Positions 379-6,350 of a stretch of 6,350 bases of DNA are shown in pieces. Position 1 is the stretch's first letter; each line of letters opens with the position of its first letter. The position numbers were made by a program, and so were the translations under genes. The stretch is from Candidatus Atribacteria bacterium (GTDB lineage: Bacteria > Atribacterota > JALVIU01). The stretch covers positions 1 through 6,350 of the forward strand of contig JALVIU010000024.1 of the NCBI GenBank assembly GCA_027028665.1. The letters are read 5' to 3'. Under the pieces are notes generated by a model, which searched no databases, was not told where the DNA came from, and saw only the letters and a program-made list of their open reading frames with translations.

Positions 379-1107
379 TTAATTCCCAAGATATGCCTTT
401 TTTATGTGTGGATCATCTGCTATTTCAGCTGATGTGCCTTCCTTTACTATCTTTCCAAGTTCAAGGATATAAACCCTATCTGAGACCTGTGTAGCCATTT
501 CTGCATTCTGTTCAGATAACAGTATGGTAAACCCCTCTTTTTTGTGTAATCTATCTATTACCTCAAATACTGTATCCACAAGTATAGGCATAAGTCCCAA
601 TGAGATCTCATCTATCATAAGAAATTCAGGTTTCCCCATAAGGGCACGCCCTATAGCAAGCATCTGTCTTTCTCCGCCAGAGAGTGTGCCTGCCATCTGA
701 GTTCTACGCTCTTTTAGCCTTGGAAATACAGAGAACACAAAATCGAGTCTTTCCTGTACCTCTCTATTATTTTTCTCCTTGTATGCACCAAGAATTAAGT
801 TATCATATACACTTATCCTGGGAAATACCCGACCACCTTCAGGGATAAGGGAGATTCCACTCCTTGCACGTTCATAGGCAGGAAGGTGTGATACATCTTT
901 CCCACGAAAATAGATATTCCCTCCTTCACTGGATTTAAGGCCCATAATAGTACGAAGAAGGGTGCTTTTCCCTGCACCATTTGCACCAACTACAGAAACA
1001 AGCTCTCCATCTTTTACCTGAAGGCTTACACCTCTTATAGCACGAATTTCTCCATATGATACCTTAAGGTTATTTATATCAATCTGAATATCAGTAGAAG
1101 GCTTCAT
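379..1107 (-). CDS. livF: Liv-type amino-acid ABC transporter ATP-binding subunit LivF
   Basis: This is one of the two cytoplasmic ATPases that power a branched-chain/hydrophobic amino-acid (HAAT) importer. In 242 residues, the usual LivF length, it shows Walker A GANGAGKST (41-49), the LivF-specific IPEGGRVFP stretch at the Q-loop position (88-96), the signature LSGGERQ (142-148), Walker B FLMIDE (162-167) with catalytic Glu167, LGLMP just after it, and EQNA (199-202), where LivF proteins carry Gln in place of the switch His. The C-terminal ...EGTSAEI..DP...AYLGN is also typical. Ile168 replaces the common Pro after the Walker B Glu. The ATG at 1105-1107 follows AGGAG at 9-base spacing. Livs are normally contiguous as livHMGF, but here livF is about 1 kb from livG, behind an opposite-strand hicBA pair, and has its own promoter. 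No clear terminator follows its stop. Confidence 0.95.
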   Translation of the reverse strand: MKPSTDIQIDINNLKVSYGEIRAIRGVSLQVKDGELVSVVGANGAGKSTLLRTIMGLKSSEGGNIYFRGKDVSHLPAYERARSGISLIPEGGRVFPRISVYDNLILGAYKEKNNREVQERLDFVFSVFPRLKERRTQMAGTLSGGERQMLAIGRALMGKPEFLMIDEISLGLMPILVDTVFEVIDRLHKKEGFTILLSEQNAEMATQVSDRVYILELGKIVKEGTSAEIADDPHIKKAYLGN

Positions 1108-1153
1108 TTTGATATTCTCCTATACTCTTCTATTAAGCTTGCTATTTTTAATT

Positions 1154-1182
1154 ACTATATACTAAAATAAACCAGATGTCAA
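1154..1182 (-). promoter_or_regulatory. Sigma70-like promoter of livF
   Basis: On the minus strand, TTGACA (1182-1177) is followed by a 17-base spacer and TATAGT (1159-1154). This is a perfect -35, a 5/6 match at -10 and ideal spacing. Transcription would start near 1147, giving a leader of about 40 bases before the livF ATG at 1107. This fits livF being cut off from the livHMG transcript. Confidence 0.8.
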
Positions 1183-1200
1183 TAAAAGGTCCTGGTTAAT
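1167..1200. repeat. Inverted repeat around the livF -35 box (possible operator)
   Basis: ATAAACCAG (1167-1175) and CTGGTTAAT (1192-1200) are inverted copies matching at 8 of 9 positions and separated by 16 bases. They straddle the -35 hexamer of the livF promoter (1177-1182). The placement suits a regulator-binding site, but arms this short can arise by chance in AT-rich DNA. Confidence 0.3.
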
Positions 1201-1278
1201 ATTCAAAAAAGCCTTATTTTAAAGCAAAAATTACATCCTAATTCCTAATATTAGAAAATTAATTAAAGGTTTGGTAAT

Positions 1279-1487
1279 GTAAACTTGGCTTTCGGTTAAT
1301 TCCAGTAATAAAAAAAGAGGAAACTATTCCCCTCCCCCAGTCCCTCCCTGGAAGGGAGATCTGAATGGGGTAAGCCCTATCTCACCAGGGAGGGGAGAGC
1401 TTGGGATTCCCGGAAAGTGAAAGAAAAATTATTTATGAACCATAAAAGGTTATAGCAGGATATGTTTAAACCGAAAGTTAAATTGAC
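1279..1487. mobile_element. MITE-like non-coding element with terminal inverted repeats
   Basis: The 19-base ends at 1279-1297 and 1469-1487 are inverted copies matching at 15 of 19 positions, with a perfect 9-bp core: CTTTCGGTT (1289-1297) against AACCGAAAG (1469-1477). The roughly 209-bp interior has no gene and is unlike its surroundings: runs of C and G (CCCCTCCCCC near 1329, GGGAGGGG near 1388) form a strong internal hairpin. Size, lack of coding capacity and terminal repeats fit a MITE or similar non-autonomous repeat. No clear target-site duplication is visible, and no transposase with matching ends lies in the window, so the mobile nature is inferred. Confidence 0.45.
1342..1394. repeat. 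G/C-rich inverted repeat (long hairpin) inside the MITE-like element
   Basis: CCCTCCCTGG (1342-1351) pairs perfectly with CCAGGGAGGG (1385-1394). Inside the loop, GAGAT (1356-1360) can pair with ATCTC (1379-1383), and GGG near 1368 with CCC near 1375, extending it to a three-part hairpin. No T-tract follows on either strand, so it is not a classic terminator. Sequences of this CCCTCCC...GGGAGGG type are often dispersed palindromic repeats in bacterial genomes. Confidence 0.6.
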
Positions 1488-1511
1488 ACTATTAAGGATC
1501 AGGGTTATATT
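1483..1511 (+). promoter_or_regulatory. Sigma70-like promoter of hicBA
   Basis: TTGACA (1483-1488), a 17-base spacer and TATATT (1506-1511) form a near-consensus promoter. Transcription would start near 1518, leaving a leader of about 46 bases before the hicB ATG at 1565. The -35 box overlaps the right terminal repeat of the MITE-like element (1469-1487). A weaker alternative, TTGAGA (1512-1517) with TATATA (1535-1540), also has 17-base spacing. Confidence 0.75.
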
Positions 1512-1527
1512 TTGAGACTAAAAATAT
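1507..1527 (+). promoter_or_regulatory. Candidate operator: inverted repeat over the hicBA -10/start site
   Basis: ATATTTT (1507-1513) and AAAATAT (1521-1527) are perfect inverted 7-base arms separated by 7 bases. They cover the -10 box and the predicted start of transcription, the usual place for autorepression of a toxin-antitoxin operon. The arms are purely A/T, so chance is a real alternative. The short HicB here has no obvious DNA-binding domain that would bind it. Confidence 0.3.
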
Positions 1528-1564
1528 GTTAAAATATATAATAAAAAATAGCGAGGTGATTATA

Positions 1565-1789
1565 ATGACTTTAACTTATAGGGTTTTGCTAAGAAAAGAG
1601 CCTGAAGGAGGTTATACTGCTATTGTTCCTTTACTTCCTGGATGTATCTCTTATGGGGATACCATAGAAGAGGCTATAGAAAGAGTTAAAGAAGCTATAG
1701 AAGGATATTTAGAGACTTTAAAGGCACACGGGGAAGAAATCCCTACAGAAGAGGGAACACTTGAGTATATGGTAGGAGTTAATGGATAA
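1565..1789 (+). CDS. hicB: HicB family antitoxin, short form
   Basis: This is the antitoxin of a type II toxin-antitoxin pair; HicB proteins bind and block the HicA ribonuclease. I chose the ATG at 1565 (74 residues) because GAGGTG (1553-1558) sits 6 bases before it. An in-frame ATG at 1526 has no ribosome binding site and would lie only about 8 bases after the predicted transcription start. Residues 15-51 show the HicB partial RNase H-like fold: GGYTAIVPLLPGCISYGDT (15-33), then the EAIERVKEAIEGYL helix (36-49) and GEEIP (56-60). The protein ends shortly after and lacks the C-terminal ribbon-helix-helix or HTH domain of longer HicBs. The antitoxin precedes the toxin, reversed relative to E. 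coli hicAB, and overlaps hicA by 8 bases. The pair runs opposite to the surrounding liv genes. Confidence 0.9.
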   Translation: MTLTYRVLLRKEPEGGYTAIVPLLPGCISYGDTIEEAIERVKEAIEGYLETLKAHGEEIPTEEGTLEYMVGVNG

Positions 1790-1997
1790 ACTTCCAGCTT
1801 TAACCCCAAAAGAAGTAATAAAAATACTTGAAAGACATGGGTTTATCCTTGATAGGGTTAAAGGTAGCCATTATATTTATTACCAGCCTAAAACAAAAAG
1901 GATAGTTGTAGTCCCTTTACATAAAAGAAGTTTACCAAAAGAGACATTGTTAGAAATCTTAAAACAATCAGGGATAGAAAGAGATAAGCTTAAGTAA
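1782..1997 (+). CDS. hicA: HicA family toxin (mRNA interferase)
   Basis: HicA toxins are small dsRBD-fold ribonucleases that cleave mRNA and are held inactive by HicB. This 71-residue protein has the full family pattern: LPALTPKEVIKILERHGF (4-21), KGSHYIYY (27-34) with the conserved catalytic His30, the RIVVVPLH strand (40-47), and LPKETLLEILKQSGI (51-65). Length is normal and no key residue is missing, so it should be active. The ATG lies inside the last codons of hicB, with the hicB TAA at 1787-1789. AGGAG (1774-1778) precedes it at only 3 bases, so translation probably relies on coupling to hicB, a common way to keep toxin below antitoxin. No clear hairpin terminator follows; 1998-2100 is AT-rich with a pyrimidine tract near 2068-2087. 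Confidence 0.93.
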   Translation: MDKLPALTPKEVIKILERHGFILDRVKGSHYIYYQPKTKRIVVVPLHKRSLPKETLLEILKQSGIERDKLK

Positions 1998-2109
1998 GAT
2001 TCAATATTTATTTGTAAGGCTTATTAGTTCTCCCATATATGTTATGTACTCATCTTTTACACTCCCTTTGCTTTTTCTTTTCTTCCTTATATCAGCTTAA
2101 AAAGTAATT

Positions 2110-2133
2110 AAAAAGGCCTCTTGAGAAAAAGGC
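2110..2133 (-). terminator. Probable Rho-independent terminator after livG
   Basis: On the minus strand, GCCT...AGGC (2133-2116) forms a stem that can extend to 7 bp with one G-T wobble and a TCTC loop. It is followed by CTTTTT (2115-2110), and another T-run lies a few bases on. It begins about 14 bases after the livG stop, so the hut-liv transcript likely ends before the hicBA region. The stem is short, so termination may be partial. Confidence 0.55.
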
Positions 2134-2147
2134 TAATATCTACTTTA

Positions 2148-2921
2148 TCATACTTTTCCCCTCTTTTTACCAAGATATGCCTCAATTACCAGGGGATCAT
2201 GGACAATATCATCTGGTTCCCCCTCTGCGATCTTTTTTCCATAATTAAGCACACTAATGGTTTGACAGAGCTTTAGTGTGATAGGCATATTGTGTTCTAT
2301 TATAAGTACTGTGATCCCCTGTTTATTCAGATTAAGCACAAGTTCAGAAAGCTCATCCATCTCTGAAAAACTGAGCCCAGAGAAGGACTCATCCAGCAGT
2401 ATTACAGAGGGAGAAAGGGCAAGTGCCCGTGCAATCTCAAGCCTCCTCTGATACCCAAGAGGTAGCGTGCTTGCAACACGATCCCTAAAATCCAAAAGCC
2501 CTGTTTCATCCAGGATCTTGTCTACCTCTTCTATATATACCTTCTTCCTATAGTTTTTAAAGGAAAGGACTATATTGGAGTAAAACCTCTCTCCATATGC
2601 AGCAAGTACATTATCCAATACGGTAAGGGAAGAGAAGGGCCTTACTACCTGAAATGTCCTCCCTATACCTATCTTTGCCATTACATGGGGAGGATTTCCT
2701 GTTACATCCTTTCCATTAAAATATACCTTTCCTGCTGTAGGGGAAAGTATCCCACTTATTACATTAAAGAGGGTGGTTTTTCCTGCACCATTTGGCCCCA
2801 CTATCCCAAATATTGCACCCTCCGGGATAGTAAGATCCACCCCATCCAGTGCAGAAAGCCCTCCAAACTGTACTCGTATATCCTGAATCTTTAAGATTTC
2901 TTTGGTTTTATTAGTCTCCAT
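2148..2921 (-). CDS. livG: Liv-type amino-acid ABC transporter ATP-binding subunit LivG
   Basis: This is the partner ATPase to LivF in the HAAT importer. Its 257 residues match the family length and show Walker A GPNGAGKTT (42-50), the Q-loop in IGRTFQ (Gln91), the LivG-type signature LPLGYQRRLEIARAL (153-167), which replaces LSGGQ, Walker B VILLDE (173-178) with catalytic Glu178, and the switch His210 in IIEHNM. The C-terminal AEGEPDDIV.DP.VIEAYLG is the classic LivG tail. Ser179 takes the place of the more usual Pro after the Walker B Glu; such changes occur in LivG and need not impair it. The ATG at 2919-2921 follows AAGGTGG at 6 bases and lies 31 bases inside the livM end, which suggests translational coupling. 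It is the last gene of the hut-liv transcript, with a hairpin following it. Confidence 0.96.
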   Translation of the reverse strand: METNKTKEILKIQDIRVQFGGLSALDGVDLTIPEGAIFGIVGPNGAGKTTLFNVISGILSPTAGKVYFNGKDVTGNPPHVMAKIGIGRTFQVVRPFSSLTVLDNVLAAYGERFYSNIVLSFKNYRKKVYIEEVDKILDETGLLDFRDRVASTLPLGYQRRLEIARALALSPSVILLDESFSGLSFSEMDELSELVLNLNKQGITVLIIEHNMPITLKLCQTISVLNYGKKIAEGEPDDIVHDPLVIEAYLGKKRGKV

Positions 2922-3763
2922 ACTATGCCACCTTCTCCAAAAAATCCACTTGGTTGAAATCTCATCATAATAAGTAAAAGTCCACCATATAGAAGCATCC
3001 TATAATCCTGAATAGGTCTAAATATCTCAGGAAGAGATATGAGGAGTATTGCACCAAAGGTAGGACCCACAATGGTATTTTCTCCCCCCACCATAACCAT
3101 AGATAGGATAGCTACAGATACGGCAAAGGAAAAATCTTCTGGGCTTATAAATCCCATAAAACTTGCATATAAAATGCCTGCAATCCCTGCATATGCACTT
3201 CCCAATGCAAATGCAAGGATCTTAAATCTCCTTGGATCTATTCCTACCATATCTGATGCAAGCTCATCATCCTTTATAGCAGATGATGCAAGACCTGCCC
3301 ATGAACGTTTAAATATAAAACTTACCAGCATGGCAAAAAAGACCATTATATATGTCAAAATGAAAAATTGAGTGTTTGTAAACATATTGTCTCCCCATTT
3401 TGGAAATGGGATACCGCCTATCCCCATTGCTCCGCCAAAAAATGGGGTATATTTGAAAACAGCCTGTACTATAAAGTTTATACCTATGGTTGTTATTGCC
3501 AAAAAATCTTCCTTTACTCTTAGACTGGGTAAGCCAAGGATTACCCCAATAAATACGGTAATTATCACAGCAAGTATCCCGGATAATACAAAAGATAGGG
3601 AAAACTTTGTTGTAAGAATGGCAAAGGAGTATGCACCTATTGCCCAAAATGCTGCATGTCCTAATGAGATCTGGCCTGCATATCCTACAATGATATTAAG
3701 CCCCAATGCCAATATTATATACATACCCATTGTTATAAGTAGTGTAACAAGATAGGAAGACAT
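2891..3763 (-). CDS. livM: Liv-type amino-acid ABC transporter permease LivM
   Basis: This is one of two integral inner-membrane permeases forming the amino-acid channel. The 290 residues are strongly hydrophobic, with several membrane helices (roughly 3-28, 33-50, 56-78, 88-104, 132-151, 183-204, 213-245 and 254-268). LivM hallmarks are GYAGQISLGHAAFWAIGAY (27-45), LGLPSLRVKEDFLAITTIG (76-94), and the cytoplasmic coupling loop RSWAGLASSAIKDDE (153-167) leading into VGIDPRRFKILAFALGSAYAG (173-193), which contacts the ATPases. PSGFFG (271-276) is the usual C-terminal motif. The ATG (3761-3763) has GAGG 6 bases upstream, within the last codons of livH; only 3 bases separate livH and livM, and livG overlaps its end. 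Without a binding protein here, substrate specificity cannot be read from the sequence. Confidence 0.95.
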   Translation of the reverse strand: MSSYLVTLLITMGMYIILALGLNIIVGYAGQISLGHAAFWAIGAYSFAILTTKFSLSFVLSGILAVIITVFIGVILGLPSLRVKEDFLAITTIGINFIVQAVFKYTPFFGGAMGIGGIPFPKWGDNMFTNTQFFILTYIMVFFAMLVSFIFKRSWAGLASSAIKDDELASDMVGIDPRRFKILAFALGSAYAGIAGILYASFMGFISPEDFSFAVSVAILSMVMVGGENTIVGPTFGAILLISLPEIFRPIQDYRMLLYGGLLLIMMRFQPSGFFGEGGIVWRLIKPKKS

Positions 3764-3766
3764 ATA

Positions 3767-4633
3767 TCACCTCTTATTAAACAAGAATGACAGACCTTCA
3801 GGTTTTATCATAAGCACAAGTATCATAAATATAAATGCCAGTGAATCTCTCGGTAGTGGAATACTCAGTGTGCCTATAAGAATTGTCTCAATAAGTCCTA
3901 CAAGGATAGCTGCATAGAATGTACCCCATATATTTCCCATACCTCCCACAACGATTATTGCAAGGGATTTGTATGCAGGCATATCACCCATTGCAGGGTA
4001 AACAGAGTTGAAATATACACCAACTAAAAGACCTGCAATACCTGCAAGTGCAGAACCTATGGCAAATGTAATAAGGGTTACCCTTTTGGAGTTTATACTC
4101 ATAACTTCTGCCATTTCCATATCCTGGGAGACAGCCTTAAGAGATACCCCAAATTTGGTCCTCTCTGTAATATACCAGAGGATCAAAATAAACACAAAAG
4201 AGAGCACAAGTACGGTAAGTTGTGTCCCACTTAGATAGGCAGAACCTAAATGATACCTCTCTGAGAAAAGACCATTGGGAAAGGACTTTATATATGGTCC
4301 AAATATGAGTCTTATACCCTCCTCGATACTTATAAATATACCTATACTTGCAATAAGGGGAACAATAGGAGGGTATTTAAGTAAAGGAAAATAGACATAA
4401 TTCTGTATAAGTACCCCAAAGAATGCACTTACCGCCATAGAGAGGATAAGTGCCAGGAAAAAATTATGTGTAAAGATATATGTATAAAGCCCTGTATAGG
4501 CACCTATCACATACACCCCTGCATGTGCCACATGTATAATCTTTAAGACACCGTAAACCATTGTAAGCCCTATTGAAATAAGGGCATAGACACCACCTAT
4601 TGTTAATCCATTAATTAATTGTTGTAGCCACAC
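3767..4633 (-). CDS. livH: Liv-type amino-acid ABC transporter permease LivH
   Basis: This is the second permease of the HAAT importer. The 288 residues open with LQQLINGLTIGGVYALISIG (3-22), the standard LivH start, followed by TMVYGVLKIIHVAHAG (24-39). They also carry the ATPase-coupling loop FGVSLKAVSQDMEMAEVMSIN (161-181), then FAIGSALAGIAG (190-201), VVGGMGNIWGT (228-238) and KPEGL (277-281) near the end. About eight membrane helices are visible. The start codon is GTG (4633-4631), not ATG; GAGGG 6 bases upstream and the family's N-terminal pattern both support it. The gene begins 23 bases inside the end of hutI, in another frame, so hutI and livH are very likely translationally coupled. 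That ties this transporter to histidine catabolism more firmly than mere proximity. Confidence 0.95.
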   Translation of the reverse strand: MWLQQLINGLTIGGVYALISIGLTMVYGVLKIIHVAHAGVYVIGAYTGLYTYIFTHNFFLALILSMAVSAFFGVLIQNYVYFPLLKYPPIVPLIASIGIFISIEEGIRLIFGPYIKSFPNGLFSERYHLGSAYLSGTQLTVLVLSFVFILILWYITERTKFGVSLKAVSQDMEMAEVMSINSKRVTLITFAIGSALAGIAGLLVGVYFNSVYPAMGDMPAYKSLAIIVVGGMGNIWGTFYAAILVGLIETILIGTLSIPLPRDSLAFIFMILVLMIKPEGLSFLFNKR

Positions 4634-5879
4634 TTTTTACCCTCTTTCCTTTTTTATATGTTGCAAAGATAGGATTTACCCCATAATGATAAGGGATGAA
4701 AAGGTAACTATCCTCTTTCAGAACAATAAAATCTGCCTGTTTCCCTTTATCAAGACTCCCTATCTTATTACCCATACCAATGGCATATGCAGCATTTAAT
4801 GTAGCTGCAGTGATAGCCTCTTCTGGCAAAAGCCCCATCTCAAGTACAGATAGTGTGATTATAAAAGGCATAGATTCTGTATAGGAACTACCTGGATTAC
4901 AGTCTGTAGATATAGCAATAGGGACACCCTCATCTATGATCTTTCGTGCAGGTGCCCTTTCTTCTCGAAGGGAAAATGCAGTACCCGGGAGCAAGACTGC
5001 AATAGTATTTCCCTTTTTGAGGGCAGAGATGCCAGAAGGTGTAATCTTTAATAGGTGATCACAGGATACTACATCCAGCTTTGCGGCAAGCTCTGTACAT
5101 CCTATAGCCTCTATCTCATCTGCGTGGATCTTTGCCCTAAGACCGTGTTTTATCCCTGCATCGAGTATCCTGTATGTCTCATCTGGTGTATATACACCCA
5201 CTTCACAGAAGACATCAATAAATCTGGCAAGGTTATTTTCTGCAATATATGGTATCATTTCATTTATTACTATATTTATATATGCCTCTTTATCTTCTTT
5301 ATATTCCACTGGTATGGCATGTGCACCTAAAAAGGTAGGTACAATCTCTCCATACCCCTCTTCATTTACTACCTTTGCCGCCTTTAATTGCTTTATCTCC
5401 GCATCATAAGAAAGTCCATACCCACTCTTTGCCTCAAAGGTTGTAGTGCCCCATTCGTAAAATATGTCGATCCTCTCTTTTAGGGCATCTACTAAGTCCT
5501 CAAGGGATGCATCTCTTACCCTTTGAGTGGTGGAGAGTATCCCACCACCTGCATTCAGAATTTCAAGATAGGAACGTCCCTCAAGCCTCATCTTGAACTC
5601 CTTCTCACGGGTACCTACAAATATGGCATGTGTATGGGGATCTACAAATCCAGGAAGGATGGCACGACCCTCTACATCCAGGACCTCTTTTATCTCTTCC
5701 CCCTCATATCTTTTCAGTATCTCATCTTGGGGGCCAATATCTAAAATTATACCATCCTTTACTACTATGGCACCTCTTTTGATAAAAGATAGGTCCTGGG
5801 CCTCAGGACCTATCTTTGCCCTTTTGTATATATCACTTACTGTAAAAATATTTGCATTTTTTACAATAAGGTCGATCAT
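4611..5879 (-). CDS. hutI: Imidazolonepropionase (EC 3.5.2.7)
   Basis: HutI hydrolyses 4-imidazolone-5-propionate to N-formimino-L-glutamate, the third step of histidine degradation, in the cytoplasm. The 422-residue amidohydrolase has all expected metal and substrate residues: DPHTH (His82, His84), GTRE.EF (Arg91), KSGYGL (151-156), IHADE (His252, Glu255), SCDH (His275) and STDCNPGSS (Asp326). These line up well with the zinc ligands and active-site residues described for Bacillus subtilis HutI. The N-terminal 75 and C-terminal 50 residues form the usual small beta domain, ending in QADFIVL...Y..G.NP. The ATG (5877-5879) has GGGGAG 7 bases upstream, inside the last codons of hutU, 3 bases after the hutU stop. 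The end overlaps livH by 23 bases. The protein looks complete and active. Confidence 0.97.
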   Translation of the reverse strand: MIDLIVKNANIFTVSDIYKRAKIGPEAQDLSFIKRGAIVVKDGIILDIGPQDEILKRYEGEEIKEVLDVEGRAILPGFVDPHTHAIFVGTREKEFKMRLEGRSYLEILNAGGGILSTTQRVRDASLEDLVDALKERIDIFYEWGTTTFEAKSGYGLSYDAEIKQLKAAKVVNEEGYGEIVPTFLGAHAIPVEYKEDKEAYINIVINEMIPYIAENNLARFIDVFCEVGVYTPDETYRILDAGIKHGLRAKIHADEIEAIGCTELAAKLDVVSCDHLLKITPSGISALKKGNTIAVLLPGTAFSLREERAPARKIIDEGVPIAISTDCNPGSSYTESMPFIITLSVLEMGLLPEEAITAATLNAAYAIGMGNKIGSLDKGKQADFIVLKEDSYLFIPYHYGVNPIFATYKKGKRVKSVATTIN

Positions 5880-5882
5880 AGG

Positions 5883-6350
5883 CTATCTCCCCAACTTATC
5901 TTCCACTACTTCGTCTATTAATTTATCATCCGCAAGGTGTGGCATGGTGATCATACCATCTTTTTCATCATTCCATTCAGATGCTACCTCCATTGCCCCT
6001 TTATTTCTTGCCCAGGAGCGTCTTGCAACACCTACCATTACATCCCAATCAACGGCATTTTTAATGATACGATCCACCCTTTCTGAACCATCAAGCACAA
6101 GTCCAAATCCACCATTTTTCGCCTTACCAATACCTACTCCTCCGCCATTGCTTAGTACTACCATGCTCATACCTCGTGCTGCATTACCTGCAAAGGAATG
6201 TACCGCCATATCTGCCATGATATTGCTACCGTCCTTTATGTTAGCAGTCTCTCTAAATGGTGAATCTGTTGCACCTGTATCATGATGATCACGGCCAAGC
6301 ATAACAGGACCTATCTCACCCTTTCTTATCATTTCATTGAACTTAAGTGC
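5883..6350 (-). CDS. hutU: Urocanate hydratase (EC 4.2.1.49), C-terminal part; 5' end beyond the window
   Basis: Urocanase converts urocanate to 4-imidazolone-5-propionate using tightly bound NAD+, the second step of histidine degradation. The frame is open to the right edge, giving 155 C-terminal residues; an internal ATG at 6330-6332 is not the start, because family sequence (ALKFNE) continues upstream of it. Recognisable are FNEMIRKGEIGPVMLGRDHH (4-23) with the conserved GRDH and the S30-P-F-RET35 segment of the substrate pocket, GNAARG (55-60), SNGGGVGIG (67-75), GGFGLVLDGSE (80-90) and ARRSWARN (109-116). The ARRSWARN stretch and the tail beyond it resemble the longer urocanases of some anaerobes more than the roughly 555-residue Pseudomonas type. 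The NAD-binding core and the FQGLP-type motif lie outside the window. It is the first visible gene of the operon, 3 bases before hutI. Confidence 0.96.
   Translation of the reverse strand, partial: ALKFNEMIRKGEIGPVMLGRDHHDTGATDSPFRETANIKDGSNIMADMAVHSFAGNAARGMSMVVLSNGGGVGIGKAKNGGFGLVLDGSERVDRIIKNAVDWDVMVGVARRSWARNKGAMEVASEWNDEKDGMITMPHLADDKLIDEVVEDKLGR

Follow-up and report, generated by a model that had tools for sequence, protein, structure and literature searches.

MITEs inside operons are already known. The Chunjie MITE of Geobacter uraniireducens (178-235 nt) has one copy in a phosphate-uptake operon and its other copies in intergenic regions (review PMC10969869). With this close precedent in a Geobacter transport operon, the operon split described here is the product of an ordinary kind of event. 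MITEs located just upstream of genes are also known (PMC10969869): the Correia elements of Neisseria lie mostly just upstream of genes and carry outward promoter sequences (PMC10969869, PMC9330008), and outward -35 boxes in transposon ends, together with fusion promoters, are well documented (PMC9330008). Among the HicBA toxin/antitoxin systems, Class 2 combines a small HicB (63-103 codons) that lacks a DNA-binding domain with a BA gene order; it is experimentally unstudied, and its regulation is an open question (mBio 2024, PMC10865869).

The window, i.e. the whole stretch of DNA that was analysed, is one entire contig of 6,350 nt from a metagenome-assembled genome of 1.79 Mb in 413 contigs. 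Its minus strand encodes, in this order, the end of hutU, hutI, livH, livM, livG, and, after 1,040 nt, livF. Upstream, the operon is undisturbed: livM, livH and hutI (coordinates 2891-5879, minus strand) have the same order as in seven sister-clade loci. Both ABC transporter ATPase genes are intact: livG (2148-2921, minus strand; PF00005 and PF12399), whose closest NCBIfam model is LivG NF008449 with a score below the cut-off and whose product shows 56-66% identity with its orthologues, and livF (379-1107, minus strand; PF00005), with 51-64% identity for LivF. The window has the two permease genes (PF02653, matched twice) and two ATPase genes (PF00005, matched twice) of a Liv-type operon; the usual contiguity of livG and livF, present in 21 of 21 comparison loci, is absent. 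The gap between them (1108-2147) contains hicB and hicA, paired on the plus strand, and an old MITE-like copy; coordinates, Pfam matches and inverted repeats confirm the preliminary description on this point. The gap also carries, downstream of livG, an open stretch of 31 codons (2003-2096, minus strand) that has no Pfam match and is possibly a remnant of inserted DNA. A search of the whole window against Rfam returned no match.

A scan of genome contigs with LivM identified the nearest locus (L062, 73% identity) in a metagenome-assembled genome labelled Desulfurellaceae. Its genes are organized as hutU-hutI-livH-livM-livG-livF, with the livF start located 14 nt before the livG stop. Together with six others (G035, G037, G039, G040, G041 and G044) it forms a clade of seven Desulfurellaceae-type loci that share the gene order of the window, with identities of 51-73% for the Liv proteins, 59-66% for HutI and 80-87% for the HutU fragment, and that differ from it in having livG and livF contiguous. 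The contiguity of livGF in relatives, proposed as a check in the preliminary description, was indeed found: the two genes touch or overlap in all seven sister-clade loci (aligned ends 4-11 nt apart) and are contiguous in all 14 more distant liv loci in which both could be read (aligned ends 4-28 nt apart). In a midpoint-rooted FastTree phylogeny of concatenated LivHMGF, the window and the Desulfurellaceae-type clade are sister groups (support 0.996). Since livGF is contiguous both in this sister clade and in the distant loci, contiguity was the ancestral condition, and the livG-livF split is a derived state that originated on the branch leading to the window. Because the livF start lies next to or inside the livG 3' end throughout the sister clade, the two genes are probably translationally coupled there.

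The insert itself is absent from the seven sister genomes, in which DNA 1108-2147 matched only two chance-level stretches of 33-35 nt. The gene hicA is present as a single copy in the window's genome, and a search for it in G031 was negative. No relatives closer than approximately 51-73% Liv protein identity were found, and at this distance the junctions, the timing and the order of events are not readable. The insertion had been called recent, which was not established, the nearest Liv proteins being 51-73% identical and the MITE copies approximately 82% alike; nor was it established that an essential part of the transporter had been hit. Duplicated remnants of livG or livF were sought at the junctions, and none was convincing. 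A 17-nt inverted pair (1145-1161 and 2098-2114) was not retained as the possible limits of a larger insert, being a likely chance occurrence in A+T-rich DNA. Joining of unrelated contigs during assembly could be invoked for a short contig of a 413-contig genome, but LivF and LivHMG match the same clade with uniform relatedness across the gap, and five further contigs of this genome carry the MITE found in the gap, which makes such a chimera very improbable.

The hut-liv operon (2891-6350) has its highest similarity to Desulfurellaceae-type genomes (up to 73% for LivM and 87% for the HutU fragment), and no Desulfurellaceae-type genome was among the same-phylum relatives searched for the window's genome. 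Ribosomal protein L2 is equally distant from both groups, with approximately 70% identity to each. This affinity of the operon, combined with the equidistance of L2, suggests horizontal transfer of the hut-liv operon.

The plus-strand pair is composed of hicB (1565-1789), which starts with an ATG at 1565 preceded by GAGGTGA and encodes a predicted antitoxin of 74 aa without DNA-binding domain (PF15919, E 6e-13), and hicA (1782-1997), which encodes a putative RNase toxin of 71 aa with a G-S-H motif (PF07927, E 7e-20). HicB matches only PF15919 and PF21748 (UPF0150-like) in Pfam. The two genes are arranged with hicB first, and they share 8 nt. According to phmmer, the nearest solved relatives are 1whz (HicA-like), 6g26 and 4c26 for HicA, and 6g1c and 6g1n for HicB. 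The pair, which presumably acts as a toxin/antitoxin system, fits the published Class 2 by its BA order, its 74-aa HicB, its 71-aa HicA and the overlap of the two genes, and differs from the systems described for that class (PMC10865869) in that it interrupts a transporter operon and has a MITE ahead of its promoter. Two candidate promoters, each matching 11 of 12 consensus positions, precede hicB on the plus strand. The native candidate (TTGAGA 1512-1517, 19 nt, TATAAT 1537-1542) has the best score between the MITE end and hicB. The fusion candidate (1483-1511) combines a TTGACA in the MITE end with a TATATT outside the MITE at a spacing of 17 nt, and between livF and hicB no other plus-strand match with a spacing of 16-18 nt reaches 10/12. 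The hicBA pair was presumably acquired horizontally, and searches of mobile elements pointed to no donor: against viral contigs, HicA gave a single partial match (49%) and LivG none; all phage matches of HicA were below 60%; and the best plasmid matches listed for HicB include Thermus and Marivirga at 50-53%.

The MITE-like element is approximately 221 nt long (~1273-1493, plus strand), with its right end toward hicB. It is short and non-coding, and has terminal inverted repeats of 23 nt (1275-1297 and 1469-1491; 78% complementary) and a GC-rich palindromic core (1330-1401). In the window it is flanked by AAGGTTT (1266-1272) and AAGGATC (1494-1500), a degenerate repeat with five of seven positions identical. 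That the element is real, as first described, is borne out by these inverted repeats and by five further right ends in the genome. An exact search with the 11-nt core of the end found one other place only, in the copy on contig C16, and profile models were therefore used. Six right ends were found in total (C24, which is the window, C289, C16, C23, C196 and C137; E <= 3e-12), the five non-window copies matching with E values of 1e-21 to 3e-12 against a right-end profile (68 nt at first, then 75 positions) built from these same copies. The C289 copy was discovered by BLAST and the C16 copy by its end sequence, and C23, C196 and C137 were recovered with a profile from which they were absent. Against 30 relatives from the phylum, the profile gave nothing clearly above chance. 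The C16 copy has inverted repeats at its two ends and is flanked on either side by the 7-nt direct repeat ACTTCCA; the C196 copy has a probable second end and no clear flanking duplication; the C137 copy is shorter and sits where a reading frame is either truncated or begins in the element. The window copy is approximately 82% identical to its best match, and the family reads as old and degenerate. It resembles the Chunjie MITE in its length and in having one copy inside a transport operon and, compared by description, differs from it in being few (six copies) and old, and in sharing its gap with a toxin/antitoxin pair.

Three further observations concern the element. Its ends resemble TGTCAA, as in an IS21-type parent; a search for an IstB gene gave two partial matches, and the parent was not found. 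A palindromic repeat of the form CCCTCCC...GGGAGGG is nested in the MITE (1330-1401) and occurs a second time, without MITE ends, at L002:550-624 (82%). The C137 copy (L114:1300-1545) has a possible GTG start followed by a short frame that resembles the C-terminal part of an interrupted gene.

The adjacency of hicBA and the MITE, and a TTGACA in the MITE end that could serve as the -35 box of the hicBA promoter, would be compatible with the arrival of both in one composite insertion, for example with hicBA as MITE-linked cargo. We consider this improbable: the second end of the MITE (1275-1297) already terminates the element toward livF and leaves hicBA outside it; the window has no additional MITE right end past hicA; and the other copies stand alone, without hicBA, upstream of unrelated genes. 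The single insertion of hicBA plus MITE implied by the preliminary description was therefore not established. Given the solitary other copies and the livF-side end of the window copy, the MITE probably arrived independently of hicBA, in two separate events.

The gene livF appears equipped to be expressed separately. Compared with its orthologues, LivF has an N-terminal extension of approximately 10 residues (MKPSTDIQID) before the conserved INNLKVSYG, and its gene possesses, read directly, its own Shine-Dalgarno and spaced start sequence (TAGGAGAATATCAAAATG). The near-consensus livF promoter noted earlier is present on sequence grounds as a sigma-70-like candidate on the minus strand (TTGACA 1182-1177, 17 nt, TATAGT 1159-1154; 11/12), and when the 168-nt region was subjected to dinucleotide shuffling, 0.75% of the shuffles contained a sense promoter this good. 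The terminator claimed for livG is likewise present, in the form of a terminator-like hairpin with T tail that directly follows the gene (2133-2116, minus strand) and was identified by pattern scan and RNA fold; its strength is modest (-7.1 kcal/mol, z -1.6), with 16 of 200 shuffles folding equally well. With such a weak terminator, readthrough from livG into livF is possible. Carried to its end, this would mean that livG and livF are still transcribed as one long minus-strand RNA, antisense to hicBA, and that the promoter and terminator matches are incidental. The modest z score and the nature of the promoters, which are consensus matches only in DNA of 23% G+C, leave room for this reading; the rarity of an 11/12 sense promoter in shuffles of the same A+T-rich DNA, and the separate start and Shine-Dalgarno of livF, make it rather unlikely. 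We favor the reading in which livF would have its own transcript. LivF is 63% and LivG 61% identical to the L062 counterparts, and because the two are about equally conserved there is no sign of livF decay. The transporter presumably still functions. An altered LivF:LivG ratio after the split is speculation.

Taken as a whole, the following history of the locus is in our judgment likely. The ancestor would have carried a hutU-hutI-livHMGF operon with the livF start abutting livG or lying within its 3' end. The livG-livF junction would have been opened by a hicBA pair, acquired horizontally and inserted in opposite orientation. The MITE-like element would have landed separately, between hicBA and livF, approximately 18 nt ahead of the -35 box from which hicBA is transcribed. 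The gene livG would now end at the terminator-like hairpin, while livF, having lost its translational coupling, would be translated from a ribosome-binding site of its own and, most likely, transcribed from a separate promoter, and it would be through this start of its own that transporter function was retained.

The position of the MITE relative to the hicBA promoter is shared by other members of its family. In five of the six copies (L003:1498-1572, L036:1170-1243, L112:1490-1565, L113:942-1020 and window:1420-1493) the right end faces a gene start in constant orientation at a distance of 70-80 nt. Beginning with the window copy, the element ends 71, 80, 73, 70 and 74 nt before the start codon, and 18, 16, 15, 16 and 15 nt before the -35 box of the best-scoring promoter. 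The downstream genes encode HicB, an AEC-type permease (PF03547), a putative ABC substrate-binding protein named from its sequence alone, a coiled-coil protein and a secreted DcrB-like protein. In a crude model of random insertion into 25 upstream gaps of this genome, none of 200,000 trials placed the five distances within 10 nt of each other. The spacing between MITE and promoter is thus far from random and suggests one of two things: the transposase may have preferred the upstream edge of promoters, or the right arm may be a mobile cis-regulatory sequence that acts on the promoter and for which the copies were retained. Only tentatively do we propose that the family is a mobile cis-regulatory element, whose right arm would modulate sigma-70 promoters from their upstream edge, where it was inserted or has been kept in fixed orientation 15-18 nt ahead of the -35 box. 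The Correia elements are set apart by their descriptions, since in the window's family the orientation is almost constant, as is the distance of 15-18 nt from an existing -35 box. No description of a fixed MITE-promoter spacing was found in the literature searched, which is weak evidence of novelty.

The split represents a clear natural case of two adjoining, probably coupled ABC ATPase genes being uncoupled by the insertion of a toxin/antitoxin pair, and as neither gene has apparently decayed, it could serve to test the importance of LivF:LivG stoichiometry. More important than the split is a repeat family that keeps a fixed distance and orientation to promoters, which would be either a transposon targeting promoter edges or a mobile regulatory element. 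Its spacing bears on the question of Class 2 hicBA regulation raised in PMC10865869: if the regulatory reading is true, the MITE would supply, in the window, regulation that is unavailable to a HicB without DNA-binding domain.
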